From Spirogloea muscicola (taxonomy: Eukaryota > Streptophyta > Zygnematophyceae > Spirogloeales > Spirogloeaceae), in assembly GCA_009602725.1 (NCBI GenBank), contig WELB01000044.1, positions 743,254-772,316 on the forward strand: DNA of 29,063 bases. Direction: 5' to 3'. The notes under the pieces are model-generated. The model searched no databases. It was given only the letters and a program-made list of their open reading frames with translations, and was not told the origin of the DNA. Position 1 is the stretch's first letter. The number at the start of each line of letters is the position of its first letter. This document shows positions 7,690 through 29,063 of the stretch, one piece after another. The position numbers and the translations under genes are program-made.

Positions 7690-7890
7690 CTTCCTGTCTA
7701 TGGCCCGAGGCTGCAGCCAAAGCGCGAACGGCACGCAGATGCGACGCGTGTGCCATTCGACCGCTCAGCGATACTGACAGGCGAATGCTATACACCTGGG
7801 ATCCGGCCCTCTGCACGCAGATGCAACGCGTGCGCCATTTGACCGACCGCTGCAGCGATGCTGACAGGCGGATGCGATACACCTGGATCC
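7690..7890 (-). repeat. Two tandem copies of a LINE ORF C-terminal tail
   Basis: Read on the minus strand, the two units (about 7805-7890 and 7720-7803) each begin near a CCAGGTGTAT block and encode versions of a tail found at the end of the LINE ORF at 21.6 kb: YRIRLSASLQRSV and YSIRLSVSLSGRMAHASHLR, the second continuing as ALAAASG. They are about 85 bp each and similar but not identical. They are retrotransposon debris lying between IF3 and the receptor kinase promoter. The duplication probably arose after insertion. Confidence 0.75.
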
Positions 7891-8368
7891 GCCGCGCCGC
7901 GGGCCAAGTCTCCGCATCTTTCCCACTCCCCGAGACGTCCAACCCCACGGACCCCGCCCCGCGCCGCCTGCAGGCCGCCGCCGCCCGCCGCGCCCGCCAT
8001 CGGCGGCCTGGCCGCGCCGCAGCCAGCCGGGCGGTCGGAGGCGCGCCGCTTCTCCCCCCCGTGTGCACCTGGCTGGCTTTCACAGCCGCTCATTCACCAT
8101 CAGCAGCCGCCTCCCTCGCCAGCGCACCGCGTCAAGCGCGCGCTCTCCCTCCCGTTCGCTGCCACCGCCACGCCGCCACGCCGCCACGCCTTTGCCGGCT
8201 CCGCCCCATCGTCCCGCCGCCTTCGACGCCATCGCCATCAAAGCTGCATCTCGCCGCCGCTGCCGCCGCCGTCGCCTTCCACTCGCGAGGGCACCCGCTG
8301 TTCGCCTGGGCTGCCCTGCTGTTGAGCCGCCCTGGTTGCCACAGGCGGTGTCGCGGAGGCAACGAACC
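7891..8368 (+). promoter_or_regulatory. GC-rich upstream region / 5' UTR of the receptor kinase
   Basis: CpG- and C-rich sequence ending at the ATG at 8369. Long open frames occur on both strands, but they are low-complexity Pro/Arg/Ala and look like composition artefacts. It is most likely promoter and 5' UTR. No core element is distinct. Confidence 0.4.
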
Positions 8369-11300
8369 ATGAACTCTCGATCTTTCCTGTTGGCTACGAC
8401 GCTGGCCGTGATGGCCGCCCAGGGGCTCGCGCAGCCTGGTGAGCAACGACCATTGTACAATGGAGTAGCAGTGCTTAATATCGCTCGCGGTAACAACCAA
8501 GGTGATGTCAAATGGCTGGGGCAATTTCTTGAACGACACTGTCGTTGCCACATTGCTCGCGCTGCACACTGAATTGAAGAGCGGCAGGACGGCACGGCAC
8601 TGCTATTCATGTAGCTCCTCCTTTCTTCTTCACGTTGGCACGTTACTAACTCGTTTGCTGCCTTGACCACCCCGCCTACAGCAGGGAGCACGCTCATCAA
8701 TTGCGGAGGGCCAGACTTCACAGACGTAGCACCTTATGCTCGCAAATGGACTGCTGACAGTAATAATTCTGGCATCTCAGAGAGGACTGTTGTCTCGAAC
8801 ATGACCAACCTGGTCTTCGCAGGCTTGGAGCTGTACCAAACGGCCAAGTACACTGACGCCTCCGTCCCTCTTTCGGTGCTTCCACATTCTATCCCCCCAT
8901 CCCTAATGCTTGAAGCGCCATCTGCTTGATCATTGCGGCCTCGCCATTGGCCCCGCGTGTGAATCTGATGTCAAGGTCCCTACTTGGCACCACAAAGCTA
9001 GTGCTCCATGATGGTTCTCAGGTGTTTTGATTCTTATGACTGGATTTTTGTGTTCTTCACTATCACACGCTTTGGTGCTGGGATTGAGCACGTTGCTTGT
9101 GTGCCAAGTGCAGGGCCAGACCTAGCCGTATAATATGTTCCCGACTGTAAGGACAGGTAATATTTGAGTACTTAGTCATTTCCAAGTCGGAGCTACCACA
9201 GAGCAACTCATCCCAGGCACCTCTTACATATGCGTGCCTGCAGTACTCTATCCTCCGGCCTAACTTCACCTATCTGAGCCAGCATCTCTTCGGCGATGTT
9301 GTGGACCGCTACTTCATTCGCTTGCACTTTGCTGCTATCCAGCCCCAATCTGGAGCTTTTCCTGATTTCTCCAAGGCCCTCTTTAACGTCACTGCCACCT
9401 ATCCCAGCCGTGAGAGTGGTTCCTACATCACAATGCCCTTGCTCAACAATTACAATGTCACTCAGCAAGCATCTGCGCAGGTAAGCTTGTGAGAGGTTGC
9501 CCTGCGCGGACCAAGTGCCTCCATCACTTTGCTTGCTGCTCTTCTGGCTCCTGTCCTGAAGATACTACTTGCCGGTGTTGCATTTCAACGGAGACGGGCT
9601 GGCAGTGGCCATTATGGAGGAGTTTTCTCTTCCCCTGGGTGTCTATATTCACAAAAATGGATCGTTAGTCACTGTAAGCCAGATGCTCAATATTACTTTC
9701 ACTCCCATATCTGACTCCTTCGCCTTTGTGAACGGCATCGAGCTGGTGCCTTCTGATGAAGACCTCTATAATCAGCAACCCCGTCTTGCATCCAATCACA
9801 GAAGTACAAGAGTGATGGCAAGGTTTGTGCTGATCAATCATGCACTGGGCCTACGAGGTTGGAATGTGCTGCACGACATTCAGTAGCATGTTGGCATGCA
9901 ATCTCTGCATGTTTTTGCATGTCCTGTGCCCTTGATGTCAGCGTCTGTGTATAGCCTGGGTGGTCAAAGAAGGTGACGCTGATGAGGATGACTTCTGCAT
10001 TCCTCCCTTTCCTTCACTGTGTCCAGCCATTGAAGCGTGAATACAGGCTAAATTGCGGTGGACCTAGTGTATCTTCTACTTCCGACAAGTTCTACCGAAC
10101 TTGGACAAAGAATGATGCGGACTTCCTCGACCCTATCTGGATTATTAATTTTAACGATTCTTTTTTCGAAGTTGGGGAAAATGGTGCTGCGAATATGACG
10201 GCAAATCGCTCTACCACAACACCATGACAGATACCACGACCCTTGATACTGACCACTCCAATACGTAACACGGACGCTCCTCCGTACTATACGCCATTGT
10301 AAGATTCCTATGATGGGCATGTTATGAATCAATATGCCATGCCCAGATGGATAAGAATGTGAGCAAGTGATGCTGACATTTCAATTCATATTATTACCAA
10401 AGTTCCACACTGGTATGGCAAGCCATCTGAAGGTCCCAATACTACATCCCTTGACATCTGCAGAGCTGTCGCCCAGAGTGACCGCAGCCTCCCAAAACAT
10501 ACTTTCAGCACCCAGCTCACCTACAGATTTCCTCTTGACGATGGCTGGAATTACCTAGTCCGAATTATTTTCTGCGAGAATGTGTATTCATTGCCAAATC
10601 AGCGCATGACGGATGTCTTCCTTGACATGGTCTTTGTTGGTGAAGTAAGTGCCTGCAAACAATAATGTGAAGTTGATCAGAAACAGTTGTTCCCTCTATG
10701 CTCATGCTTGCCATCATTGGAGTAGCCAGTGAAGATGGATGGAGGACGATAGAAACAGAACATGGCATTGCTATTGCATACAGTTGCTCTTGTTTTGTAC
10801 TTATGTCTGGCTTTGCAGCCAATTCTGACACCTCATCAACCAGTCCTCCCGCAGTATGACATTGCCAAGTTGGCAGGGAAGAACAGCGCCTATGTGAGAG
10901 ATTTTGTTGTTAGCCTTCCTGTGGGACAGAGTTCAATGCGACTTGATTTTCGCATTTCTAATAAGTTTATGGTGCGCAAAAGCCAGGTTGCGTCTGCCTC
11001 GTGAATTTGACATGCAAGAAGTGAAGCTTGCCTGATGACACTCGGACCTAGCTTATGAATCATACCTACTGCTTGTGTACATCACTGCTTTCTGCAATTT
11101 GCTGCAGGTGAACAATGTGACGGTATCGGGCATCGAAATTTTGAGGCTTGATACAGGGAGACCGGATAAGGCTGGAGAGGACTATTGCAGCACACCCCCT
11201 CCTCGTGGCACACCAGCTCCATCTCCAAGTGCCCCCCCCCACCCCGTCGGACCAGCTCCTCCTATTGCAACGGCCCCTCCTCCTGGCACACCGGCTCCTC

Positions 11301-14300
11301 TCCCCAGTGCCCCAGCTCCTGGCTCACTTGCTCGTCCTCTTGCGGCCCCTCCTCCTACCTCGTTTGCCCCTTCTATTCCAAGCGCCACTCCTCCTGCTGA
11401 GACACCAGCTTCTCCTACTCGAACCTCCCCTCCTCCTGCGGGCACACGGGCTCCTCCTAAAGGGCCACAGGGGAAGAGCTCAAGCTCATCAGCCATAATT
11501 GGGGGGGCGATTGGAGGATTAGCAGTGGTGCTCATTCTCGCCACACTTGCTGCTATTGCTGCATCAGAGAGCGCAAGCAGGATAAGCATTCACTTTCCGA
11601 ACGCTCAAAGCCATCAACATCCAGAAGGACCCCCCGTTCTTTTCCTGGCAAAAGCCACAAGAAGCTGCCTGGTGAGCTCTGATCAGCTCAAACCACATGT
11701 AATTTGCGTGCAAGCTTGATTCAGAGCAGGCAATCACATGTCAAGTATGCGCCTGTGGTGAAGTCCGACGTTCCTATAAAGTGTGACGAAGTGCACCAAG
11801 GCCAACTATACAAGATGCAGCCATTGTAGATACAGGCTTATGGCAAGGCCTGATTGGGATGCATAAGCCTGCTAGTGACCTGTGATTGAACTTGCATCCG
11901 CAACCTTGTCTGGCCGCTTTCACAGAGATGAATGTGTGAGCTTTGTTATGCAAACAGGACAGCTTCATGTTTAAACTGCAACTTGCGCAGGTATAGAGAC
12001 AGGCAAGCAGGTTGGGAGAGAGTTCTCGTTCGGGGAGCTAGTTCTGGCTACCAATGACTTTGCCGACAATTTGTTGCTCGGTGTTGGCGGATTTGGCAAG
12101 GTTTCGAGGTAAGAGAGTGCTCATAAAGTGGCAAATCTCTGTCAAGGCAACAACCACCCTGTTGCTAAGGACTTGCTATTCACTAGCAGCTATTGTTTCA
12201 CCCCACCCCAATTTACCATCACTCACCAAGAAGGGCCACCATGCTGCAGGGTGTTCAGAAACTTGACATTGAGCTACTACAAGAGTGAGTGGCCTTAGCG
12301 AAACCCCTTCTTTGAGTGAGTGCTGGCAATGCTGATGCATCGAAGGCATGGCGTGATGTTGGCCCATCGTAATACTTGGCGTCGGGCATCAGAGTCTTCC
12401 TCTGCTGGTCACTTGTCAGGAGTATCTCTGCCACCTCAGAGAGCCCCGCTGCGTGTCTGGGTGCTCGATGCGCATGGCATCTGTGTGCAGCGTATCGACT
12501 TCCCCATCGAAAGATGAAGGAGATGAACGGGAGCCCCTATTTCCTGTGGCCATCCATCGTCGACCATGTCTTCAATGACTCTGATGTGGTGCGTTCATCT
12601 GCCCTGTCTGACGAGCAAGAAGAGAGGCTGCTCACGGTTGCAGCTCTGGTCCTGACCATGTGTTTACCATGCCTGCAGGTTGTTCTAAATCTTGGTCTCC
12701 ACTATGCGAAGCACAACTTGGAGTGGTACAAGACCGATCTCACAGACCTCGGCAAGCGTCTGGAAGCAATAAACAAGGTGCCAGGGAGGATGGGAATCTT
12801 CAAGGAGACTTCTCCACAGCACTTCTACAGCCCCACTGGCAGCGGGGAGTATAACCCCAAGGATGCCAAAGGTTGCCGTGAAAAGGTGCAGCCCTGATTC
12901 TCGCCAGGGCATTGTGGAGTTCCATATGGAAATTAAGCTGCTCTCCCAGCTAAGGCACCGTCACCTTGTGTCTCTGATTGGCTATTGCGAGGAGGGTTTG
13001 GAGAAGCTTCTTGTGTACAACTTCATGTCGAATGGCGTCCTACGGTCTCACCTTTATGGTAAGCATTAATCTATTGACTGTTACCCTGCTTGGGACAGTC
13101 TTCAACTACAGGGCAAGACTTGAGCGTCCTTCATCCCAAGCAGCAGACTTTTTGACAGAAGAAAACACTGCATCTAGCTAGATTCACCCATCCATGCATC
13201 TCGGGAGTGGCAGGCACGGATGCGGTCTTCCACAACGTCCTTTCCTGGAAGCAGCGTCTTGAGATCTGCATTGAGGCTGCCCGAGGTCTTCACTACCTTC
13301 ACACTGGTGCTGCTCAGAGCATCATCCATCGTGACATCAAGGTGTTGCTTCTCAGTTTGCATTGCTTTGACGTCTCCGTTCTCATGAAACCCAGTGCTTT
13401 GGAGCATACCTGTGGATCTGCCTGATACACCAGTATGTAGACAATGGCGCTTTCTCTTACCTAGTCATCCCCTATTTGAGGATACAGGCTGCACAGCTTT
13501 GCAAGCTCAGAACAAGGTTGAGTAACCTTGTCTTTTGGGGGGCTGGCAAAGCAGAGCACAAATATCCTACTGGATGACAACTTTGTGGCAAAGGTCGGCG
13601 ATTCTGGTCTCTCGCGTATCGGACCCGGCTTGGGCAACTCCATTGTAATGTCCCATAACTCCAACTCTCGAAGAAGCGGGTTGCATTTGTGGTGCCCAGT
13701 TATCACATCATGGGGCTTGATCATGATGAGGCATGCTGGTAACCAAGGTTGAATTACTAAGAATCTGCAAATAATTAATACATCAATCAGCCGTCTTTGC
13801 TTCACCCGTCAATGCCCAGGTGAGCTCAGGCGTGCGTGGCAGTGTGGGATACTTCGATCCCAAATACTTGTTCAGGTATTCTATTTATCGTGGAGCTCAG
13901 TAAGCCTGAGAAGCTGCACTTTGCGAATACAATCGTGTACAGTACAGGATTTTGTGTGCGGACAGCGTTCATGGAAATCATCATAGCTTTGTCTTGTGCC
14001 TGAAGTAACACCTGTATCCAGCTTCATGTCACTACTTACCTGCAGATATTACTCCATGCTCATCTCGGGGTATATTTCCTAAGCAACGGGCAACATTTGC
14101 ACCTCAGTTGGCGACATGTGTCTGCAATGGTTGCTCACCATGATAAGTAATCTCTGCTTGATTTGTTGTTCTGGTCACATTGCAGGCTTCAATTAACGGA
14201 GAAGTCAGACATGTACAGCTTTGGAATTGTGCTGCTGGAAGTCATCTGTGCAAAGGCACCAATCAACACCAAGATTCCAAATCAGCTTACACTTGTCGAA

Positions 14301-14813
14301 TCAGTATAGCCATGAACTCAAACTCACAATTGCACAATCAGTAGCAAAGTGAAGGCAGGGGCAGAACTTTGGTATTGCTCTGATGTGGTACAGCATCTTT
14401 TCAGTGGACTTCAAGGCCGTCCCTCAGAACACTCTTCAATTTGCAGGCCCAGAACCTCATGAAGCACAGAATGCTGGACCAGATGCCAGATACCAAGATG
14501 GCTGGCACTTATCAGTGGGCGTCCATGAAGAAGGTGGTGGAGCTGGCGCTCAAGTGCGTCTCCTACGACAGCTCAGATCGTCCACCCATGAGTGACGTCC
14601 TCTGGAACTTAAAGTATGCGCTGTTGCTGCAGGTAACACGACAGGAACCATTGACCATTTGCGTGCTTTCTTTGCGCTTGCCTCCTATCAATTTGTGTGA
14701 AGTGCCAACGCATGGCAGGCTGGATGAGTCAGACATTCCGTGAGACGAGGTTTGTAAGTTGGTCACTAGAGATGTCCCTTTCAGTCCCTTGCCTTCAGGT
14801 GCTGATGATGTAA
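8369..14813 (+). CDS. Malectin-like receptor kinase (CrRLK1L type), about 16 exons, apparently damaged
   Basis: A plasma-membrane receptor kinase of the FERONIA/THESEUS kind. Exons: 8369-8438, 8682-8875, 9244-9480, about 9562-9811, 10027-10298, 10464-10644, 10819-10986, 11108-11671, 11991-12108, 12872-13058, 13214-13341, 13555-13644, 13820-13875, 14186-14303, 14447-14632 and probably 14799-14813. Domains in order are a signal peptide ([18 protein letters not shown]), a first malectin-like domain ([32 protein letters not shown]), a second ([40 protein letters not shown]), a 90-residue Pro-rich hinge, a membrane span ([20 protein letters not shown]) and a kinase ([59 protein letters not shown]). 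Oddities are a TGA at 10225-10227, a frame change near 11500-11548, DSG for DFG, no exon found for the residues between GKV and VAVKR, and no in-phase junction from 9480 to the next exon. It is either a decaying copy or an unpolished sequence. Confidence 0.85.
11500..11550 (+). other. Membrane span followed by an apparent frame change in the receptor kinase
   Basis: The extracellular hinge and membrane span read in one frame. Continuing that frame gives a non-basic tail that does not splice in phase to the kinase. Another frame gives [13 protein letters not shown], a typical cysteine-rich basic juxtamembrane segment, and from there exon 11108-11671 joins the next exon (11991) in phase. An indel of one base, or its equivalent, must lie between about 11500 and 11548. 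Confidence 0.6.
12250..12870 (+). pseudogene. PC-esterase / TBL-like gene fragment inside a receptor-kinase intron
   Basis: Between the kinase glycine loop (exon ending 12108) and the VAVKR exon (12872) lies coding sequence unrelated to kinases. One part, ending at 12588, reads [19 protein letters not shown]. After a 90-nt GT-AG intron (12589-12678) it continues as [32 protein letters not shown] and [18 protein letters not shown]. The order V-x-N-x-G-x-H-Y ... PGR ... ETSPQHF resembles the C-terminal half of plant PC-esterase (TRICHOME BIREFRINGENCE-LIKE) proteins, where the D/S-x-x-H region is catalytic; this assignment is from memory of the family. A short possible upstream exon at about 12250 reads [12 protein letters not shown]. 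The fragment has no start, no N-terminal GDS block and no own stop region. It runs directly into the kinase exon, both frames being open at the junction. Confidence 0.55.
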
Positions 14814-16490: not shown

Positions 16491-16525
16491 GTCAAAGAAA
16501 TCACTTTTCCAGTGATTTCTTTGAC
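16491..16525. repeat. Perfect 15-bp inverted repeat with a 5-nt loop
   Basis: The left arm GTCAAAGAAATCACT (16491-16505) is exactly complementary to the right arm AGTGATTTCTTTGAC (16511-16525), separated by TTTCC. It is AT-rich within a GC-rich setting. It could form a stable RNA hairpin or DNA cruciform, or be joined terminal repeats of a small foldback element. Confidence 0.9.
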
Positions 16526-16659
16526 AACAGCCCGCTCCTCCAAGGGTGGACCTTGGGACTACCCTCGCCACACCCTCTGGGGAGGGGTGGCAGGTGAAGC
16601 GCTACAAGTAGTGGGCTGAGGCCAGACCCAGCAATCGGACTCCGTTCAGAGCTCGTTCT

Positions 16660-16910
16660 ACCAGCCGGCATCGACCGACGGTGCAAAGCAAGCGCTTGGG
16701 ACCGCTGTAGGGACATAGACAGAACGCAGTCGGTAGCAGGACACAAGATTCAAAGGCACCGAGCCACCGGGAAATGCTGCACCTTGTTCCTGGCGCCGCT
16801 GGTCAGCTTGAGATGCCAGCAGCGAAAGTAACGAGGACCACCGACCCCCCGTAACACCCATGGATGTCCATGGCCAGGGGGTATAAGGTATCACCCGCCG
16901 GGTGGTCACC
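16660..16910 (-). mobile_element. Degraded LINE 3' fragment (minus strand)
   Basis: On the minus strand, in shifting frames, this matches the end of the LINE ORF at 21.4-21.7 kb: HPAGDTLYPLAMDIHG (LINE: DHPRGDHFFLCAMDIYG), then GGRWSSLLSLLASQADQRR (LINE: ETKWSSLLHRLALHVDARR), then LSMSLQRSQALALHRR (LINE: LSLSLQRSQALAIHQR). At least two frame changes show it is an old copy. The 236-codon minus-strand open frame at 16658-17368 runs through it but mixes frames. Confidence 0.8.
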
Positions 16911-17559
16911 CGCAGGGGAGGAGCGGGGGAGGGACCCAAGCCATCAGCAATTGTGGCGCTTCGGCTACTTCCGCGGCGTGGTGGTGGCGCAGCTGGAGTG
17001 CCACGGAGCGGGCGGCGGTGGCTGGCGGCGGCTGCAAGAGCGGGCCATGATTGCGAGGACACGCACGTGGGGGAGCGGCCGCCCCGGGATGTGCAATCTT
17101 GAGGATCTTGGTTGGCGAGGGGCTCTCGGCGCGGCTGCCTTACCCCGACTGTTGGGGCTGTTGAGCTCTCAGCGCGTGTCCTGCGGTGGCGACGTTCCCG
17201 GTCTTCGCCACCTGGCTTCGTGGTAGCCACCTGAGATGGAGTCCATTGACTTCCTGGTGGGGGGCGAAAAAGAAAACTCTGGAGGGGGCGGGGTCCACGA
17301 CTCATACCCCCCCCGGTATTGCGGCGCCCATGTCCCCTCGCGCGCACCAATGCAGCCACGCGAGTCAAGGTTCTCGCAGTCTAGTGAGTCTGCGCCTTCT
17401 CGCAGTGAGACATTTCATCGGTGGGCTGATTGATGTCGATTTGACAAGGCATGTGAGGTGGCTACACACACGTGGACATCTGAGGCAAGTCAACTGTCAA
17501 TTTGACTTTGAAGGGTTCGCGAAAGCGGCACCTCAGCTCCGGTCAGCAAAGCTGCGTAT
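16911..17559. other. GC-rich sequence, probably older LINE or promoter debris
   Basis: Open frames here are Arg/Pro/Gly-rich and overlap on both strands. The part nearest 16910 may be the 5' continuation of the minus-strand LINE fragment, but I cannot align it. Nothing else is supportable. Confidence 0.3.
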
Positions 17560-17706
17560 CTGCCGCTGAGCCGTAGATCTGGTATTAGTGGGGCACACCC
17601 CATCCTGCCGCCCAAAGCTCTCAAAGGTCAACGTGCGCAACTGCCGCTGAGCCGTAGATCTAGCATCGGCGGGCAGACCTCATCCTACCGCCCGAGCCGC
17701 TCAAAG
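17560..17706 (+). repeat. Tandem duplication, 81-bp period
   Basis: A block beginning CTGCCGCTGAGCCGTAGATC occurs at 17560 and again at 17641. The units share the following CATCCT-CCGCCC and CTCAAAG segments but differ at scattered sites. The pair lies just upstream of a LINE 3' end motif and may belong to that element's 3' UTR. Confidence 0.85.
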
Positions 17707-17744
17707 AAGCCCGAAGAGAAGCCGAAAAGCCATATTCGCCCTCT

Positions 17745-17830
17745 TTCTTTGTTCATTCTTTTTTGGGCTGGCTTTTTCCAGCCCCTATCCTCAGTGGGCG
17801 AGCCCTAAATAAGATGAAATAAATAAAGTA
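17745..17830 (+). repeat. LINE 3' end with hairpin and A-rich tail (plus strand)
   Basis: TTTGTTCATTC and a T run lead into GGGCTGG-CTTTTT-CCAGCCC, a perfect 7-bp hairpin at 17765-17784. The same T-rich block and GGGCTGGCTTT recur at 23.16 and 23.67 kb. After the hairpin comes an AAATAAG/AAATAAATAAAG stretch that could be a LINE tail or polyadenylation signals. Confidence 0.7.
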
Positions 17831-18622: not shown

Positions 18623-19434
18623 GTCTAGCTATCTAGTTCTGGATTTGGTTCATTGCATCGCTGTTGATTGCTTGGTGTCTCCACCGATTTACCACTAATC
18701 TGAGTCATCCATCGCAAGCTCGAGTTATCTTATCATGCCGTTACTAGGCTGTCTATTCGTACATGTTCCTAAGTTCAAACAAAAGACTACCTATTTTTTC
18801 TCGCTTGTTAATTCCATCCACAATGTGTTGCGTTGCCGGCCACGTGGACTCTGACGTCTCACCTGTATTCTATACAGATCTGCCATATCGACCTGCCGAT
18901 CAGTACTGTGTGGCACGACAACGCCCCCCCAGAGCCGCCACCTTTGCCGCGGCTGCGCTCGCGCACCATGGCTTCCGCGAGCCTCACGGCGATGACCCCG
19001 CCCGCCTGTGCTCGCATTGCACCAGCGCCTGCTCCCTATTGACACCAATATAATGATGGCACGCCAGAACCCTTCATTGCGCTCATGCAGATAGATGTAG
19101 TACAGAGCACATTGCGAGGTCCTTGCTGAGCACCATAAAGGACCCAAGAGCTGAGTATGATCGTCTGTCCACTCGCACAGGAGCTAGAGGACTGGTGGAG
19201 GACGGTTCTCGTTGTTGGAGCGCATGTTGCTGGAAATTGGTGATAGTGCCCAGGGTCGTTGATGACTGCCCACGCGACAATGGAGTAAGGGCAGAGTGCC
19301 GGCATGTCCTGAGGTCCGTATTTCACAGGTTGCCGGCTAGCTTTGTCGTGGTGGCCGCTCCCCAGACGGATGGGTCACCCGTGCCAAAGGGGGCGGCGCG
19401 CTCACAGGCTGCAGGTCATTAGTAGGGCGCGTGC
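18623..19434. other. No recognisable gene before the LINE ORF
   Basis: Short frames on both strands show no domain. The reverse transcriptase frame is closed by TAG TAG at about 19421-19426, so the LINE is 5'-truncated or decayed here. I find no APE-type endonuclease or ORF1 upstream. Confidence 0.35.
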
Positions 19435-21729
19435 TTGCACCACCTTCCGGAGCCGAGGACCTTGCGTGCCCCTCGCAGGCGACAGGCAGGCATGGGGGGG
19501 TGCAAAGGACTCTCTCAGGAGGCGGTGGCTGTGAAAGGGAAAGGCAGCACCCTTCTCGCCCTTTCCAAACCAACAGGGGGCGTACGCCCCATCGCTATGG
19601 GCGAGGTGCTCACACGCCTGTTCTCCAAGGCACTCTTCCAGCAGCATAGGGAAGCGGCCCAGCTTCACTTCTCCCCACACCAGTTCGGCGCGGGGCTCTC
19701 TGCAGGACCAGAAGCAGTTGTCCATGGCCTGAGGGTGGCTACGGACTCCAGCCCCAGCTGGATGGCCCTCTCCGTCGACGTCAAAAACGCTTTCAACTCC
19801 GTCGACCACGGAGCAATTGCAGAGGAGCTCCACACTTTCTTCCCCTCGCTTGTCCCGTTCTTTCGTTGCACGTATGGGGCTGCATCTAGTTTCCTATGGG
19901 GAGCGGGCACCTCGCGGGTTGTCCTAACATGATGCACAAGCACCCGACAGGGCGACCCTCTCGGCGGTTTCCTGTTTGCTTTGGCTCATTTGCGTGCGCT
20001 GCGCACCACGGCGGCGGCCCACCCAGAGGTACTTCTGCCTAGCTATGCAGATGACACAACTTTGGTGGGCCCCCCTGCAGATGTCACCCGAGCCTTCAGC
20101 ACCTTGGAGTGTGAGCTACACTCTCTCGGCCTCACTGTCCGCCCCAACAAATGTACGGCATGGTCGCTAGTCGACATCCCACCCACCCTTCAGCTTCCGA
20201 TCGGGTGCCATAACCCCCCCCTCGGCCTGGTGGTGCTTGGAGTCCCTCTGGGCGAGGCAGCATATGTGGGGCAGGAGGTGCAGGCAACCATCGAGCGACA
20301 GTGTAAGACTCTCCCAGCCCTCCCCACATTGCATGACTTTCAGCTGGCTGTTGCTATCCTAACCCGGTGCGTGGCCCAACGCCCAACCTACCTGCAGTGG
20401 GCAGTTCCTCCCACCACTGCTCTGGACAATATATATGCCGCTGCGGATGTCACCCTCCAACAGGCTCTGCTCGGCCTGCTGGACCACCCGGCACTCCCTA
20501 CAACTCCTGCCGCCCTCCTACAAATGACACTCCCCATAGGCAAGGGCGGCCTTGGCTGCCGCTCTCTGGCTCACCTGGCTCGCGCAGCGCACCTGGGGTG
20601 TTGGGCCTAAGTGGCCTCCACAGTTTCAACGCGCTTCATCAGGAGGGGTCAGCCAGTACTGGCACCAGCAATAACTGGCGTGGCAAATGGGACCCTGCCC
20701 TTTCAAACTTCCCTCTCTGACGTTCGCAGAGACCTTCTCCGCTCCTTCCCATCACTTGCGGCAGATCAGGTCGACTTTGCAGCGTGGGCAAGATGCTCTG
20801 ACCTGAAGGCTCAAGCTCGCTTCTCACGCGCAGCCAATGAGCGAGCCATGAGTCACCTCAAAGCTTTGCTCAAGGAGGATGGACGTGGGCTCTCTCGTCT
20901 CCACTCCATCAGCTCTCCGGGGGCGTCGGAGTGGCTCAACGCTTTGCCGATTTATGAGTCCCTCCGGCTCTCCGACGACCTCTTCCGGACGGCTGTCCAC
21001 CACCATCTCGGCCTCCATCCACTTTGTTTGGCTGGCATTCGACAGTGTGGATGTGGCCATCGTTCGGAGGATGAGGTATCTTTGGCAGCCCACATGCTTC
21101 GATGTTTTGAGGGAAGTGAACGTAATGCCTCCCACAATCTTCTCAGAGACGCTATGTATGGCTTGGTGCGCGAGGCAGGTTATCATGCGGCCATAAAGGT
21201 CCCGGGCATCATGCCGGTGCTCCAGAAGCGTGGCAGGCCTTACGTGAGGCGTCTGGATGTGGTGGCCACCCCCTGGAGTGGTGGGCCTCGTCTTCTCCTC
21301 GACGTCTTTCTCATCGACGCATTCCAACCAGGGGCACCGACACCGAATGTGCCAGGTTGGGCGACACATCATGCAGAGAGGAAGAAGGAGAGGCACTACA
21401 ATGACCACCCCCGGGGCGACCACTTCTTCCTATGCGCTATGGACATCTACGGCGGCTACGAAACGAAGTGGTCTTCCCTCCTCCATCGCCTGGCACTGCA
21501 TGTCGATGCCCGCCGAGGTAGTCGGGCGGGTTGCTTGGGGCATTCTAGCGTCCCGCAAGCCATTGTTGCATGCTATAGAATGCGACTATCATTGAGTCTA
21601 CAGCGCTCCCAGGCACTCGCGATACACCAGCGTGCTGGTCGTGCATTAGCCCAGGCTAATGGCTTCCGTGGTGGTGGGTTGGCGCCTCAGTATAGCTTGT
21701 CAGATATGCATGTGCTCACTCGGGGATAA
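19435..21729 (+). mobile_element. Non-LTR retrotransposon (LINE) with probable restriction-like endonuclease, 5'-truncated
   Basis: One reading frame of 765 codons runs from 19435 to the TAA at 21727-21729, broken only by a TGA at 19930 and a TAA at 20608. Reverse transcriptase blocks in order are PTGGVRPIAMGEVLTRLF, HQFGAGLSAG, SVDVKNAFNSVD (first catalytic Asp), RQGDPLGGFLFALAHL, SYADDTTLVGP (catalytic DD) and LGLTVRPNKC. After a thumb-like region comes a cysteine/histidine cluster, CGCGH...AAHMLRC (21045-21105). Then RRLDVVATPWSGGP...LLLDVFLIDA places two Asp 14 residues apart (21256 and 21301), resembling the PD-(D/E)xK pattern of R2/Dualen-type endonucleases. The ORF ends with the tail YRMRLSLSLQRSQALAIHQR ... 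SDMHVLTRG, which recurs in other copies. No APE endonuclease lies upstream. Confidence 0.88.
19435..21729 (+). pseudogene. LINE reverse transcriptase ORF with two in-frame stops
   Basis: The three open segments (19435-19932, to 20610, to 21729) share one frame, so no indel has occurred over 2.3 kb. The first stop lies just before the RQGDPLG block, the second between the thumb region and the C-terminal domain. Each stop differs from a sense codon by one C-to-T change, as expected from cytosine methylation and deamination. The copy is therefore probably young but inactive. Confidence 0.8.
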
Positions 21730-21879
21730 TAGTGTCCCCCTTAGCCAGCTCATTACCCATTTGATAGGACATTTGTAAGGCTAGATTTGGCCTCCCTTTC
21801 AATTTCATGCGCACCGCGCGCCTTCTCTCGAAGGAGAGAAGGAAGCTCTTTGACTAGGGGCGATAGGTTGGAAAGAAGC

Positions 21880-22540
21880 ATAATGGCCACAGGGGCGAAG
21901 GCTCCAAAGAAGAAGTGGCTCTCCCAATGGGGGGGAGCAAGGGCTGTGAGAAGCCAGCCCGAAAAGAATTGACAAGGTTCGAAGGGGCCAAACTACGAGC
22001 TAAGCAGCGACTACGGGGCCTGAAGAGGCTATGGCAGAAGGGGGGAGGATGAACCACTCAGTAGTTACGAGTGAGGAGCCTCAAATCCGACAGACTAGCT
22101 GCCGGAAAACTATCACCCTGACGAAAGCCAGAGGCCGCAGCGAGAGCACGGCCAGCACGCAGATGCAAGGCGTGGGCCATGGACCGCTGAAGGGAGATGG
22201 ACAATCGCATACGATATACCTGAGCCGACGAGCCAGCGGCGTTGAAGTCAGCCGGCTCACCGCGCCTGCGGGACACAGCACGCCTCTCAAGCCTGGCCAG
22301 CAGGTCGAGCCAGTGGGACCCGAGAGCCCCGTGCACGTCCACAGCCAGGGGGACGAACTCATCGGCAGCCGGGTGGTCGGCGTGTTTGGCCGCCTTGCTG
22401 CGAGCGGCCTTCGCCGCAGCGTGGCCAGCCCGAGAGGCAGAAAGCCCCGGGTTGGAGCGGTCGACCACATCAGTGGTGACCACATCAGCGATGATGCGCC
22501 CGCCGCCGCCCGGCGTGGACCGCTCCAAAGGGCCAGCCTA
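21880..22540 (-). mobile_element. 5'-truncated LINE copy, second subfamily (minus strand)
   Basis: On the minus strand an open frame from about 22528 to the TGA at 22058-22060 carries the last part of the LINE ORF: HPAADEFVPLAVDVHGALG, HWLDLLARLERRAVSRRRG, then YRMRLSISLQRSMAHALHLR, AGRALAAASGFRQ and SLSDLRLLTRNY. It is clearly homologous to 21.35-21.73 kb but diverged, so it is another subfamily. The frame is undamaged. Its 3' UTR continues to about 21940 and ends with GGGCTG...CAGCCC (a hairpin at 21941-21960), then sequence to about 21880 of uncertain origin. Confidence 0.85.
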
Positions 22541-22784
22541 AATACAAATGACAATCTCCAGAGAAGAAGAAGAAGAAGGGAGGGAGAGGGCAGGCCACGA
22601 AACATTGGACAAAGGTCGGGGGTTGGAGCAGGCACGGGGTGCCTGTCTGGCGTATGGCTACTGTCCGATGCCAGGCACACCTTTCAGTCTCCGCGGGGTA
22701 CACGGCGAATCGCGTCAGATCAAAGAAAGTAAGGACGCTTCCAGAAAGCAAGCGCGGCCAGATTAAGGGGGCGGTGGCAGTGAG

Positions 22785-22875
22785 AGGCCAGCCCAGAAAA
22801 AGAGTGAACAAAGTTTGAAGGGGCCAGAGAGAAGCGCTAAAGCACAAAGGGGATCAAACAGCTACGAAACACTCA
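22785..22875 (-). repeat. LINE 3' UTR only (minus strand)
   Basis: Read on the minus strand, this runs from ACTGAGTGTTTCGTAGCTG at about 22875 to a T-rich block and GGGCTGGC at about 22785. It matches the 3' UTR after the ORF stop in the 23.58-23.68 kb copy, but the coding tail is missing. It is an extreme 5' truncation or a broken copy, lying head-to-head with the next plus-strand copy. Confidence 0.7.
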
Positions 22876-22912
22876 GTGACCCCTCTAAGCCGGGTCGCTC
22901 GCACAAGGCTTC

Positions 22913-23190
22913 CGCATGCGCCTGGCCGTATCGCTTCAACACTCCCTTGCCCACGCCGTCCACACGCGAGCAGGCCGTGCTATGGCCGCCGCCTCTGGGT
23001 CTCGGCGGAGTGCCTCTTTCCCTGCAGCGAGCTACTCAGACCTGATGTTGCTCACTCGTGGGTACTGAGCTTCCCTCTGCATCGTCTCTGTGTTCTGCAG
23101 TGTTTTGTAGTGTAGTCCTTTTTCCGGCTTCTCTTTCTTTGGCTTTGGACATTGTCCATTCTTTTTTGGGCTGGCTTTGCCGGCCCCTCT
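22913..23190 (+). mobile_element. 5'-truncated LINE tail with 3' UTR and hairpin (plus strand)
   Basis: The frame 22913-23068 reads RMRLAVSLQHSLAHAVHTR, AGRAMAAASGSRR and SYSDLMLLTRGY and then stops, the same tail as the long LINE. The 3' UTR follows to a T run and GGGCTGGC-TTT-GCCGGCCC (23168-23186). That hairpin is kept with a G-U pair where the 17.77 kb copy has A-U. Confidence 0.8.
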
Positions 23191-23217
23191 TCTCTATGGG
23201 CGCGCACTTCTTCTGAG

Positions 23218-23434
23218 CAGCCGCAGGTCGGAGAAACTAATCTCCGGGTAGCGGGGAAAGATTCATCCTGAAGAGCGCGACGAAGATAATTGGCCAGCCC
23301 AGAAAAAGAAGGAAGAAAGAATTGGAGGGGCCAGAAAAGCGCTAAAGCACACGGCGACTCAATTGGCCACTGGGTGCCTAGTATCCCACATTGAGCTAGC
23401 CACAGGTCAGAGATACTAGTCTCCGGGTGTCGGG
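23218..23434. repeat. Pair of imperfect direct repeats flanking a LINE 3' scrap
   Basis: GC(C/A)GCAGGTCGGAGAAACTAAT-type sequence at about 23218-23254 recurs as CACAGGTCAGAGATACTAGT at about 23400-23434; both continue CTCCGGGT--CGGG. Each contains a small palindrome (GGAGA...TCTCC, GAGATACTAGTCTC). They enclose a minus-strand LINE 3' end. They are too diverged for a fresh target-site duplication and may mark a duplicated segment of 3' UTR. Confidence 0.55.
23288..23355 (-). repeat. LINE 3' UTR scrap (minus strand)
   Basis: On the minus strand GTGCTTTAGCGCTTTTCTGG leads to CCCCTCCAATTC, a T-rich stretch and GGGCTGGCC. It is the same 3' UTR as at 22785-22875, ending at the GGGCTGG motif without the closing hairpin arm. 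Confidence 0.65.
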
Positions 23435-23436
23435 TG

Positions 23437-23690
23437 CCCTGTCTGGCCGTCTTGCTGCAGAAGTCTGTGGCCCGCGCGCTGCACCTGCGTGCCGGCAGAG
23501 CCCTCGCTGCTGCCCCTGGCTCTGGCCAGGGGACCCGCTTCCAGGAGCCCAGCTTCTCTGAGCTGAGGCGGCTTTGCAGGGGTTACTGAGTGCTTCCTAG
23601 CTGCTTTGTTTCTTTTTGTGCTTATTTTCTTAGCATTCCCCTGGCCCTTTCTTTGTACTTTGTTCATTCTTTTTTGGGCTGGCTTTTTCT
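23437..23690 (+). mobile_element. 5'-truncated LINE tail with 3' UTR (plus strand)
   Basis: The frame ending in TGA at 23587-23589 reads VLLQKSVARALHLRAGRALA and SFSELRRLCRGY, the LINE ORF tail again. The 3' UTR runs through CTTTGTTCATTC and a T run to GGGCTGGCTTTTTC at about 23690. This block is nearly identical to 17748-17778, but the second hairpin arm is absent. Confidence 0.8.
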
Positions 23691-24362
23691 AATCTTGACA
23701 TTGCTGGTAAAGGTATTGACAACATTGTAGTCAGGACTAGAAAGCTAGCGACCGGGGCAAGCAAGCAAAGCCTGCCATGGAGCACGTCAACAAACTGCAC
23801 AGCTATGACCACCACTCGAGAGAAGGTGGCCAAAAGAGTCTCTGCTGGCATGGTGGGTAACTTTTATCATCATCATCAGCTGGAGATGACGAGGCACGGT
23901 TGTGTTTGACCCATGATATGAAGCAGCCCTTCCTCCTGCTAGATAGAGTGAAAGGACATTCACAAACCACTGGTTATTTGTAAGAATACAAGGTACAATT
24001 GTGGCCTAAGTCTTCAGCAACTTTGAATCCTGCACCTTAGCGGTTGTATATCTGCAAGTACACCTGCATTCTAGGTGCCTGGCCCGTCTGTACCCATTAT
24101 CGGTAGCGCTAAGTCTGCAACAAGTCAAATGGAACATGCTCTCAAGATGCTTGTTAATCTCACAAATTCTATCACAAGAAAATGCTGGGACTGCATACCT
24201 CTGCTGGCGGAGGGTCGAAAGGGAGGCAGACTTGTTCTCTCTGTCTCCAATGACATCCTTTTCTCCAATGACACTTAGCCGAGACGTAACTGTGAGCATA
24301 TTGCAGCAATATGGCTTGGGCTGCAGTAAGCAGATTGATCACTTCATCCATGCCACCAACTG
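23691..24362. other. Between the LINE cluster and SMG8: no confident gene
   Basis: A plus-strand frame from about 23691 to 23911 is open for some 70 codons (starting NLDIAGKGIDNIVVRTRKL) and could be a stray exon, but no partner exon was found. On the minus strand 24006-24299 is open and lies just downstream of the SMG8 stop. It may be 3' UTR or an alternative last exon. Confidence 0.3.
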
Positions 24363-27300
24363 TTACCCAGGCACCAAGCTGTCTCCAGCCCAGATTGAGT
24401 CCGTAACAGCGTAAAATGACAGCTTGGCCGACAGTTTCGCAGTGCCGATTGCATTGTTGTCACCCAGTAAGGAAAATTCCAGTCCATCATAACCTCTGCT
24501 GATGTACAGCGATGGCAGCTTCAAGCAGAGCAAGCAGCCCGGTGGCAGAACCACCTCTTTGGCGAGGCTGAATGAGGTCGCTGGCTGCTCAGGGTCGAGA
24601 CAATGGCGAGTGTCAATGCTTAAGGTCATTTACACAGCTGAAATTGGGTTAGCAAAGACCAAAGTGATGAAGAGCTTTGCGCACCTGAAAATGCACAGCA
24701 GCCTTGGTTGCAAAAACGTGTGGCCTGGGAGGAGTGACCTGCATCCCACACGAGCAATATCAATCTTCTCAGACGCAATAGTAAGCCCACCCTGGACAAG
24801 TGTTAAGCATTACCTTGTCTCCACTTGAATTCGTGCTCTGCGCGACATTGTTCACTTCTGCTCTTATATTCTTCAACTTGCATAGCAAATGAGTGCGTTA
24901 GCATATGTGGCACACCAATCAATGTAATCAAGCAACTTCTCAATGCAAGGCTCACCATGTATATGCGCTGTAGCTGCGACATGTAAAGTGCAGAGTCTGG
25001 CCCCTGGTCAGGAATTGACGTGCCGTCCTCCTTTGCAGACTTGCAGAAGGGGCACTTGAGGAACATCGGCAAGTTGCTATCCACCAACAACTGAGCCTTC
25101 GCAACGTCAACAAGCTTATTGTCGGCATGAGCCGACGGAGAATTCTGAACCGGCTCAGTGCCTCTGAGAGGCAACTGCACAGTCTCCGCGTGCCTGGCAC
25201 CGTCCCTGCTTCCCGGCGCGTCAACTGCGAGAACTTCACTCAGACCTGCAGGCTTGACTGTGCCAGCACTGTCATGTGCCAGGCCTGATGGTCGTGCAGC
25301 GTCCACTACACTTTTTGTGAGAAGGTCGGAGTGGAGGAGGTAGCGGTGCCCGAAAGGGCACTCGTGCTCAAAGCCGACATACGCGGAGCTGCCCAGCTCC
25401 ACGGCGCCGACAGTGCTTGCTTCACTCTGAGCAGCGGCGCCGTTGCCCTGGCCTCCTCCACTCTGAGCTCGCAGGTCACCATGCACCTTGCCTGCCTTTC
25501 TCCGCGGCTGCTTGGCGCTGGAGCTCAGCGACGGAAAGGCGAGATCCTCATCCAAGGACAGTATGCTGTTAGAAGCCCCATGAGTTGGCCGTCCCCCATC
25601 CTGCTTGCTTGAAGTAATGGGAGCCCTTTTACTGGCAGCAACATGGGCGTCTGGCTTAGCATCCGGACGCGGCGGGACAGTGACCACCTCCAGGATGTTG
25701 GCCGCCTTGCAGAAGCCCTCCTGCTGCAAGCCCTTGGCGGGGCTGTACGCCGAGCTCCGGCCCAGCAGCACAAGCGACCAGCCGCAGGGGTCGAAGTCCG
25801 AAGCATCAGCTTTGTCATTCGCGGCCGACTTCTCAGTCAACACCACGCGATCCTGCTGAGTGCCAAAGCTGCCGAAGAAGATCCCGGCAGTGGGCTTGGC
25901 CAGCTCTGTCTCCAGCTCGGGCTCGGGCTCCGGCTCGGCATCGATGCTCAGCCGTGTACAGCAGCCATGGAAGTCGCACCACAGCTTGGCGGAAGGAATG
26001 TCAAAAGCGTCCGCGCACTGCTTCCTGGCGGCGCCGCACGGGCAGGCTCTGAGGTACACAGCACCGCTGGAGTGCATGGAGGTCGTCGGTGGGCCGCCTT
26101 CACTTGACCGGAGGGCACCATCATTGGTAATGACGTCCTCAAGGGCGGCTGGCCTGCTCGCAACTTGCTCGCCATTCATCCTGCTGGCACTTGATGCAGC
26201 CATTGCCAGCTCTTCTTCGAGCTCTGCGCTGCTAGCAAGGGCAGGAGATGGCGGAGTGGAGGCAAGTCTCTCTTTCAGGCCGTTGATAAGCTGCCCTTCC
26301 CACCCCTCCCATAGCAGCTGACCTCCCTTGTTGGCACCCTCAGCCTGCACAGCAACATACAGCAAAGAGATGCTACAGGATATGCTACATCTTGATGGTC
26401 TCTAGGTTGTGAGGGTGATGAGCTTGACAAGCAGCACAAATGACTTGTCGAGGCAAAGCAGCTATTGCCCTTTCATTTGGTCAACAAATGCTAGTCATGC
26501 TATGTCGTCCGTAAACCCAAGTCATAATTATGAGAAGTCTTCAACTCCACGGCCTGCATCCCTTGCATCGGATGTGTTAGACTGCAGGTGTCGAGCAGGG
26601 CCGTAATGGTGGGAGACTTACCCCCGGCATTGATGCGTCTTGACAGTGAGCTGCAAGCATGCAAGGTCGGCCAGTGAGGCTTTCTGCATCACATTGCCGG
26701 CGGGCCACCCAAGTGGCTCTGCAAAGCCGACTGAGCTCTGCGAGTGCGTTTGGCAACTCGGGCCCCCGCACGCGCTCCTCAAAGTACTTGAGCGCCGACT
26801 CAAGACGCTCAGCGTGCACTCTGGTGGGATACAGCAGCGGTAGGCCCTCTGAATAAAGGGCAAAGGCCGCCGGCAGCTCCTGGGCGCACCAGTGCTGGGA
26901 GAAGGCCGCCTCCAGGCCTGTGGAAGCCTCCATGGCGGTCATGGCCGCGTCCGCAGTGACAGTGGGGCGCCTTATGAGCAGGCCGGGAGTGCTCTTGACA
27001 GCGGCGGCGTCGGCACTCCTCCGCTTTCTGGCTGCTGCAGGGGGGCTCAGGGCCTCTGCCAGCTCAGTGGCGCTGGTGGCCCATGCCGCAAAGAGCGGGA
27101 GCTCGATGCGGGGGTGCAAGCTGAGGCGGCCAGCGCCAGGCCCGCCGCGGGGGCTGCGCAGAGCCTCAGCCTGCTTGGCAACAAAGTCACGCACGAGCTG
27201 CACATCCTCGTCCTTGTCCTTGTCGGGGCCCCCGCCTGCAGTGTCGGCCTCCACCATCGGCAACGATCCCGAGCCTTGCTTGCCAGAAGCCAGCAGGTTC

Positions 27301-28934
27301 CTCAAGGCACCGACGACGGCCTCGAGCGCAGCGGGGCGGCGCGCACGGCGCGTCCTCGGCAGCAAGAGAACGGCCCGCACAGGGTCCAGTGCAAAAAGCG
27401 CCGTCCCGCTGCTCGCCCGCGGCAGTCCGTCCTTGGCATCCGAAGGAGCTGCTGCTGTGATGCGGCACCGCTTCAGCACCAATCGAAGCTGCGCCTCCAG
27501 GGCCAGCTGGCGCCGCCGCCTCAGCAGCGCTCTGTCGGCAGAGCTGCCTGGCTGCTGGGTGCTGCCGCTGCCCGTTGGCAAGGTTTCGAGCGGCATTGGA
27601 GCAGGTGTGAGTGCTCCGCCGGCGGGCTTGGCAGCCTTGTCGGCAGCAACGTCATCCGCAGCATCGTCATAGCAGGCGATGATGAGCGTGGGAGCGAAGC
27701 TCCCAGGAAGGAGCACCGTGGCGGCACCCACCCCACCATGACTGTGCTGCCTGACCCCGGCGAAGCCCGGGCCCCCGCTGCCACCGGCTGCCGGGGAGCG
27801 ATACTTGGGCCGCTCCAACGGCCGCGGTGGCGCCGTGAGCGGCGGCAGCGCAGCGCCAGCCTGGAAGAAGGGCTGCAGCGCGTCCTTGCCAGCCTGCAGC
27901 ACGCGAAGCGTGCGCACGAGCGCGGGTTCCAGACCAGGGCCGTCCTGGAGCAGCACAACAAGATGGCAGACCTGCGGGGGCGCACCATGACATCGAGGCC
28001 CAGCGTAAGTACCAGCCAGACTTGCCGGCCTGCATTGTGCCGCCGAATCCATTGCAAGCCAGAGGCACTGCTGCCGAAAGTGTCGTTGCTGTGCTGAGCT
28101 AGACTGCAGGAATACGCGCACAGCATGCGGCACGGTGATTACTGTGAAGAGGAGGAGCAGCAGGCGGTGGTCCTCGTCGTCTTTCTCCTGCAGCCAGCGC
28201 TGCTGCGAGGCCGCCGCAAGCGCCGGAGGCCCGGCGGCGCCGGCCTCGCCCCGCTGCTCCCATTGGAAGCGCCTCAGCCTCGCGGCGCCGCACTCCCAGC
28301 CCAGCGCCAGGTAGACCACGTCCCCGTCCTTATCGTGGTACTGCTGGAGCCGGCCAGCAGTCAGCTGCTCGAGAGCAGCTCCGCGCGTGGTGGCCTCGGC
28401 TCCGGCGGCGGCTGCAGCAGCGCCTGCTGCAGCGCTCAGGCCGGCCGGCGGGGGCAGCGGCTCCGGCCAACGAGAGAAGACCTGCGCGTCGAGGAGGCGG
28501 TCCAGGAAGCGGGCGGCGCCGCCGGCGGTGGGGCTCACCACGCCCACGGCCACCGTGCGGCTGCAGGAGCACGCCGCGACAGCAGCGGCGGAGACAGCGG
28601 CGGCGGCGTTGGAGGCGGCGGTGGCGGCAGCGGCGGCGGCGTGAGCACGTCGGCAGTGCTGCCAGGCGATACGGAGCCGCCATTGCCGGAGTGAGCGCAG
28701 GCAGCGAGCAAGGTGAGAGGCGGCCTGCGCACCCTCTGGCCTCAGGAGGGGCGGGAGCGGCGGGAGCTGGCGCGGCCTTGCTGGCGATTGCCGCTGCCGC
28801 GGCGTTGCGCACGACGGCGGCGGCGGCGGCGGCCGTCGCCGTCTGCGGCGCCGGCGCCGGCGGCGATGCTGGTGGCGGCGTCCTCCGCTGGTCCCTGGCG
28901 GGGGGTGACGGCGCCAGCCGGGGCTTGCCAGCAC
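24363..28934 (-). CDS. SMG8: SMG8-like nonsense-mediated decay factor, 5 exons seen, 5' end unresolved
   Basis: SMG8 partners SMG9 and holds SMG1 kinase in check during nonsense-mediated mRNA decay. Exons on the minus strand: (about 28934)-28143, 27971-26622, 26344-24956, 24738-24685 and 24584-24363, all joining in phase 0. Recognisable blocks in order are VAVGVVSPTAGGAARFLDRL, VCHLVVLLQDG/VRTLRVLQAGKDAL, RALLRRRRQLALEAQLRLVL, DPVRAVLLLPRTR, HWCAQELPAAFALY, LPLLYPTRVHAERLESALKY, CDAESLTGRPCMLAAHCQ, HSSGAVYLRACPCGAARKQC, WSLVLLGRSSAYSPAKGLQQ, YVGFEHECPFGHRYLL, FLKCPFCK, SQLQRIYMVTPP and EVVLPPGCLLCLKLPSLYI. The total exceeds 1,100 residues, near the plant norm. No ATG opens the first exon in frame, and the N-terminal sequence is Ala/Pro/Arg low complexity, so the start lies upstream, possibly beyond the window, or is hidden by an indel in GC repeats. 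The last exon may have a spliced alternative after LEFSLLG. Confidence 0.92.
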
Positions 28935-29010
28935 CAGGCTGCGCCGACCCCGGATTCTCCGACGGCGACAGCGGCGTCGGCCTCGGCGGGGCCAAGTTCC
29001 GGCTGCGGTA

Positions 29011-29055
<45 letters not shown>
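29011..29055. repeat. GCC trinucleotide microsatellite at the window edge
   Basis: About 15 uninterrupted GCC units. On the minus strand they precede the SMG8 first exon and read as GGC, so they are either 5' UTR or an Ala/Gly run in the N-terminus. Confidence 0.9.
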
Positions 29056-29057
<2 letters not shown>

Positions 29058-29063
29058 TGCCAG

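Follow-up and report, generated by a model that had tools for sequence, protein, structure and literature searches.

A dead, probably 5′-truncated LINE with a putative REL, and decayed copies of it in the surrounding DNA

LINEs that carry a restriction-like endonuclease (REL) include the site-specific R2 elements, which are now being studied for gene insertion (PMC12222951). A KXRINALP linker motif has been published for R2, and a Cys/His spacing of CX2-3CX7-8HX4C has been described for aligned RLE LINEs, in which the order, as we read it, is NALP, Cys/His cluster, H, D, D and K...Y (motif passages of PMC5678591). RandI/Dualen elements with both APE and REL have been published for green algae, and they are the only green-algal LINEs with a REL-type endonuclease named in the portions of PMC3747384, PMC3636483 and PMC8226300 drawn on here. 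Utopia and NeSL elements combine a reverse transcriptase (RT), a C-terminal zinc finger and a REL, and Utopia is reported from Amoebozoa, SAR and Opisthokonta and not from green plants (PMC4640811).

The locus compared with these systems lies in a stretch of DNA of 29,063 nt, referred to as the window. An earlier note on this DNA had described a LINE with an R2/Dualen-like REL, in which R-L-D...L-D-V comes after a Cys/His cluster and has 14 residues separating its acidic positions. The motifs are present exactly as claimed in P0001, the translation of 20611-21726 that follows the second of two in-frame stops, where RLD occupies residues 214-216, the second D is residue 231, and exactly 14 residues separate the two D. 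We consider it highly probable that 19426-21729, called copy A, is the 3′ part of a dead, 5′-truncated REL-bearing non-LTR retrotransposon (LINE), made up of an RT, a linker with a Cys/His cluster, a REL and an extension of ~80 aa. The order along the frame is RT, linker, Cys/His cluster and RLD-x14-D, and the features of copy A are given below.

19426-21729, plus strand: copy A, a single frame, 767 codons long plus a terminal stop, interrupted by two in-frame stops
19426-20607, plus strand: RT and start of the linker of the apparently 5′-truncated copy A (RVT_1; in the PDB the joined frame matches R2 best)
20608-20610, plus strand: in-frame TAA that breaks copy A (ORF reading)
20611-21045, plus strand: linker with EWLNALP (nt 20929-20949), resembling KXRINALP of R2 (sequence; motif passages of PMC5678591)
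21046-21105, plus strand: Cys/His cluster C-x1-C-x12-H-x3-C (P0001 residues 146-165)
21130-21480, plus strand: putative REL core with SHN, RLD, x14, LLLDV, K-x2-H-Y and a G/W region (colinear with R2 RELs, 5/5 key residues)
21481-21726, plus strand: C-terminal extension of ~80 aa past the putative REL (alignment A1; codon-position constraint)
21730-21820, plus strand: 3′ UTR of copy A, its end not sharp (drawn from visual comparison with copies C, F and H; missed by the 3′-UTR profile)

The in-frame stops are a TGA at 19930-19932 and a TAA at 20608-20610. Pfam RVT_1 matches flank the first of these, with E values of 7.1e-7 (29.6 bits, at the cut-off) and 4.6e-6 (26.9 bits, below the cut-off), and P0001, the C-terminal part of copy A, had zero Pfam matches. 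Since RVT_1 begins at frame residue 48 and ten upstream ORFs (17.2-19.9 kb, both strands) gave no Pfam match to an RT, an APE or another endonuclease, copy A is probably truncated at its 5′ end. When the read-through frame was joined with three copy pieces from the window (profile A4), it picked out three R2 proteins among the PDB sequences (4.4e-5, 5.8e-5 and 1.2e-4), and LINE-1 ORF2p was absent from its matches up to an E value of 10; the same library includes four sequences labelled LINE-1 ORF2 together with 8c8j, which we take to be ORF2p, and these were retrieved by an R2 RT segment. The read-through frame by itself matched R2 at 8e-4 to 0.0073. Taken alone, the first RT piece had retron-type and group II RTs as its closest matches (best 0.0065); R2 came fourth at 0.081, and the second RT piece had no PDB match. 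Two of the five distinct R2 sequences in the PDB library were unmatched by the RT of copy A, and these are 8gh6 and 8ibw, presumably both R2Bm. Judged by these PDB matches and not by a phylogeny, the RT of the joined frame leans towards R2-like RTs.

As a reference for the REL we used the C-terminal sequences of three PDB R2 proteins (8gh6, 9nl2 and 9nl3); the R2 proteins in the PDB were retrieved with a bait sequence. The key residues scored were the H of RH, the D of PD, the second D, and the K and Y of KX2KY. When the three R2 RELs were aligned with P0001 by hhalign, H, D, D, K and Y fell on identical residues (5/5). The maximum was 2/5 both in 1000 column shuffles (750 with none, 229 with one and 21 with two) and in the 95 other ORFs of the window (83, 11 and 1, respectively; 96 ORFs of at least 100 aa in total). 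A permissive pattern, drawn up post hoc from the sequence and consisting of the Cys/His cluster, then [RK]..D-x12-16-[DE], then KxxxY, occurred in 0 of 20000 shuffles of P0001 and in 31 of 20000 when KxxxY was left out, and in either form it was unique to the copy A ORF among the 96 window ORFs. By score, the hhalign match of P0001 to the R2 RELs is weak (probability 0.6%, E 0.1): of 600 column shuffles, 23 did at least as well as its score of 17.3. For the single sequence, which scored 17.0, 42 of 600 did so, and three other window ORFs scored higher. A three-sequence R2 profile in hmmsearch gave P0001 a domain score of −2.4, the top eight sequences (seven shuffles and one other ORF) scoring 3.4 to 4.2. 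What supports the REL assignment is the order of the residues and not the score, and on that footing the description in the earlier note, a LINE-type RT followed by an apparently R2-like REL, stands.

Copy C, which is 46% identical to copy A, retains the second D and the K (IIADVV; RSKAAK). Over 148 codons the identity between the two copies is 53% at first, 62% at second and 34% at third codon positions, with an NG86 dN of 0.62 and a dS of 2.53 that is saturated; this pattern fits past selection on the protein, the copies having probably diverged as proteins. Two AlphaFold runs, each on the main sequence plus three window copy pieces, reached pLDDT values of 40.7 and 39.3 and gave no usable fold. 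The second model has a helix at 568-583, strands at 606-611 and 626-631, a helix at 645-658 and a strand at 665-669, a REL-like order that carries no evidential weight at pLDDT 39.3, and Foldseek with this model found nothing at E 0.001 or better.

Set beside R2 (9nl2, 9nl3 and 9dou, labelled as such, and 8gh6 and 8ibw, presumably R2Bm), copy A is alike in its RT, NALP linker, Cys/His cluster and REL with the order H, D, D, K and Y. It is unlike R2 in its Cys/His spacing, in having SH for RH and LD for PD (RLD against RPD), in the H that replaces the second K of KX2KY, in the x14 between the acids where 8gh6 has x12, and in an additional C-terminal extension, which reaches past the span of the R2 REL alignments. 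EWLNALP and KxxxY of copy A agree with the published RLE-LINE motifs, whereas C-x1-C-x12-H-x3-C falls outside the spacing published for them (motif passages of PMC5678591). We treat this odd spacing as a variant and not as an exclusion, and have lowered our confidence in the putative REL LINE on its account. Copies C and J have G-x2-W where GXW has been published. The motif RMRLSxSLQRSxAxAxHxRAGRA in the extension is common to copies A and C and, with differences, to copy F.

The many local copies reported previously are real. Searches with tblastn, blastn and nhmmer recovered at least eight decayed pieces in the window besides copy A, five of them within 1.8 kb, and tail and 3′-UTR pieces are found near 7.70-7.90, 16.57-16.91, 17.74-17.81 and 21.94-23.69 kb. 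Each of the following was located by sequence searches, with further evidence in brackets.

7703-7902, minus strand: copy K, a decayed extension, internally duplicated
16573-16907, minus strand: copy J, a frame-broken REL end and extension
17739-17806, plus strand: copy H, 3′ end with nested hairpin (RNA folding)
21936-22519, minus strand: copy C, C-terminal half of the REL, extension, stop and 3′ UTR (alignment A1)
22776-22877, minus strand: copy D, 3′ end only
22910-23208, plus strand: copy F, extension, stop and 3′ UTR with nested hairpin (RNA folding)
23287-23357, minus strand: copy E, 3′ end only, with an imperfect direct repeat of 42-43 bp on each side
23444-23692, plus strand: copy G, tail and 3′ end

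The midpoints of five of the nine copies lie inside 1.34 kb, and when nine intervals were placed uniformly 20000 times, five fell inside 1.5 kb in 0.22% of the placements. The cluster is thus denser than expected by chance, in a test whose nine intervals and 1.5 kb limit were chosen post hoc. Between 22776 and 23692 the copies form two head-to-head pairs, D (minus) with F (plus) and E (minus) with G (plus), their 3′ ends pointing outwards. These pairs look as if reverse transcription had been primed from both ends of a break; D scores closer to E and G than to F, so the pairs D/F and E/G need not each be one event. The imperfect 42-43 bp direct repeat that flanks copy E (23214-23255 and 23392-23434) is perhaps an old, long target duplication. 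Other repeats were seen beside the smaller pieces: an internal tandem duplication of ~80 bp, 86% identical, at 7731-7891 in copy K; a repeat of ~74 bp in two adjoining copies, 80% identical, at 17553-17706 directly before copy H; and a 35-bp stretch at 16491-16525, downstream of copy J, that matches its own reverse complement (86%).

Five of the 3′ ends were folded as RNA (copies A, C, D, F and H). Those of copies H and F form the same nested two-stem fold, with z scores of −3.6 and −3.3, and the nested structure was absent from the folds of copies A and D. In copy C the inner stem folds and the predicted fold is without the outer stem, which can be drawn by hand with 5 pairs, including one two-sided change from C-G to A-U. 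It is plausible that the nested 3′ hairpin is a handle for the RT. Target-primed reverse transcription is the most likely way in which the source element moved: one strand of the DNA would be nicked by the REL, the RT would hold the element RNA through its structured 3′ end, the nested hairpin, and extend the nicked 3′ end, and incomplete copying would leave 5′-truncated pieces. What we observe is anatomy, namely an RT, the REL residue order, tails and 3′ ends shared between copies, short 3′-end copies and stops, and from it we infer the activities of cleavage, RNA recognition and priming and the cause of truncation.

The window has 56% GC and GC-rich repeats. Fragments of a malectin and kinase receptor gene are spread over several frames at 8500-14740, as if with introns, with Pfam matches to PK_Tyr_Ser-Thr at 2.1e-10 and, below the cut-off, to Malectin at 0.0021 and Malectin_like at 0.0075. 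This gene presumably resembles the CrRLK1L receptors of plants, and with such fragments at 8.5-14.7 kb the proposal of a plant genome is plausible. Given the GC content and the GC-rich repeats, the host that we favour is a streptophyte alga. Long ORFs on the minus strand at 24806-29063 have SMG8/SMG9-like matches (9.4e-20 and 3.5e-11), a nonsense-mediated decay factor.

We found no rRNA or snRNA (Rfam, gathering score) and no tRNA anywhere in the window, and no target duplication beyond chance at copy A, where the longest flank match is 9 nt and random pairs score up to 11. The suggestion that the family is site-selective therefore found no support. For an insertion into 28S rDNA as in R2, no rDNA was found in this one window, which has decayed copies only. 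For the U2, spliced-leader and tRNA genes in which Utopia and NeSL insert, neither a tRNA nor any Rfam match at gathering score, U2 included, was found in the window. An unlikely alternative to targeting of rDNA or snRNA genes is self-targeting, in which a REL-only LINE clade of green algae (streptophyte or other), with its own Cys/His spacing, conserved extension and nested 3′ hairpin, would tend to land in or beside its own copies, the outward-pointing head-to-head pairs being examples.

Taking copy A as the remains of a REL-bearing LINE, two narrower placements are equally likely, and we hold each of them tentatively. The first makes it a member of RandI/Dualen, green-algal elements with an upstream APE and a downstream REL, whose APE would have been lost with the missing 5′ part. 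L1, RandI (8 families) and RTEX are the green-algal LINE families in the table of a 2013 review (PMC3747384), and Dualen/RandI is the LINE group described with an APE plus a PD-(D/E)XK-type endonuclease in the relevant portion of PMC3636483. The missing 5′ end of copy A leaves room for an APE, and that none was found in the ten ORFs upstream counts little given the probable truncation; the best PDB matches of the joined-frame RT, which are R2, speak against this placement. To our knowledge, Dualen is not represented in the PDB. The likeness to RandI/Dualen of Chlamydomonas is one of description and not of sequence: both would have a PD-(D/E)XK-type endonuclease and, should the host be an alga, both belong to the green lineage; these elements carry an APE, whereas the corresponding region of copy A is missing.

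The second placement is a separate REL-only clade, R2/NeSL/CRE-like, in a streptophyte or other green alga and marked by the C-terminal extension. R2 being the nearest solved RT to the joined frame argues for it, as does the ~80 aa by which the protein exceeds the region spanned by the R2 REL alignments, but such an extension may occur in Dualen or other REL elements too. Plant L1 LINEs have an upstream APE, no downstream REL and 5′ truncation; copy A is like them in its LINE-type RT and 5′ truncation, and its REL residue order would be unexpected there. That copy A is instead an APE-type LINE (plant L1 or RTE), with a Cys/His cluster followed by unrelated sequence that is REL-like by chance, is unlikely, for although the REL alignment score by itself is not significant and the linkers of APE LINEs also end in Cys/His clusters (linker passages of PMC5678591), the key residues agree at 5/5 against at most 2/5 in the controls, the second D and the K persist in copy C, and the joined RT matched R2 and not LINE-1 ORF2p.

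We also looked for relatives of the element in collections of viruses and prokaryotes. None was found in viral contigs (searched with P0001, both RT pieces, the tail alignment A1, the RT alignment A5 and copy C), in prokaryote genome contigs (P0001 and A5) or in phages (P0001 and P0002), and plasmids searched with P0001 gave two weak Burkholderia matches only, with E values of 0.5 and 0.8. The sole locus returned looks like a phage contig with a chance 51-aa match. Because of what these collections hold, absence from them weighs little for algae.

The earlier note had also thought that the family may be poorly described. No description of the copy A element was found in the literature searched, which did not cover Repbase, and the claim holds only partly, since green algae have published RandI/Dualen elements that combine APE and REL. 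Copy A extends a known class of REL-bearing mobile elements; it does not represent a new type of system. Another algal family could help to decide whether REL LINEs existed early in green plants and whether they select their targets. Since copy A is dead, its value lies in pointing to intact relatives and not in the copy itself.
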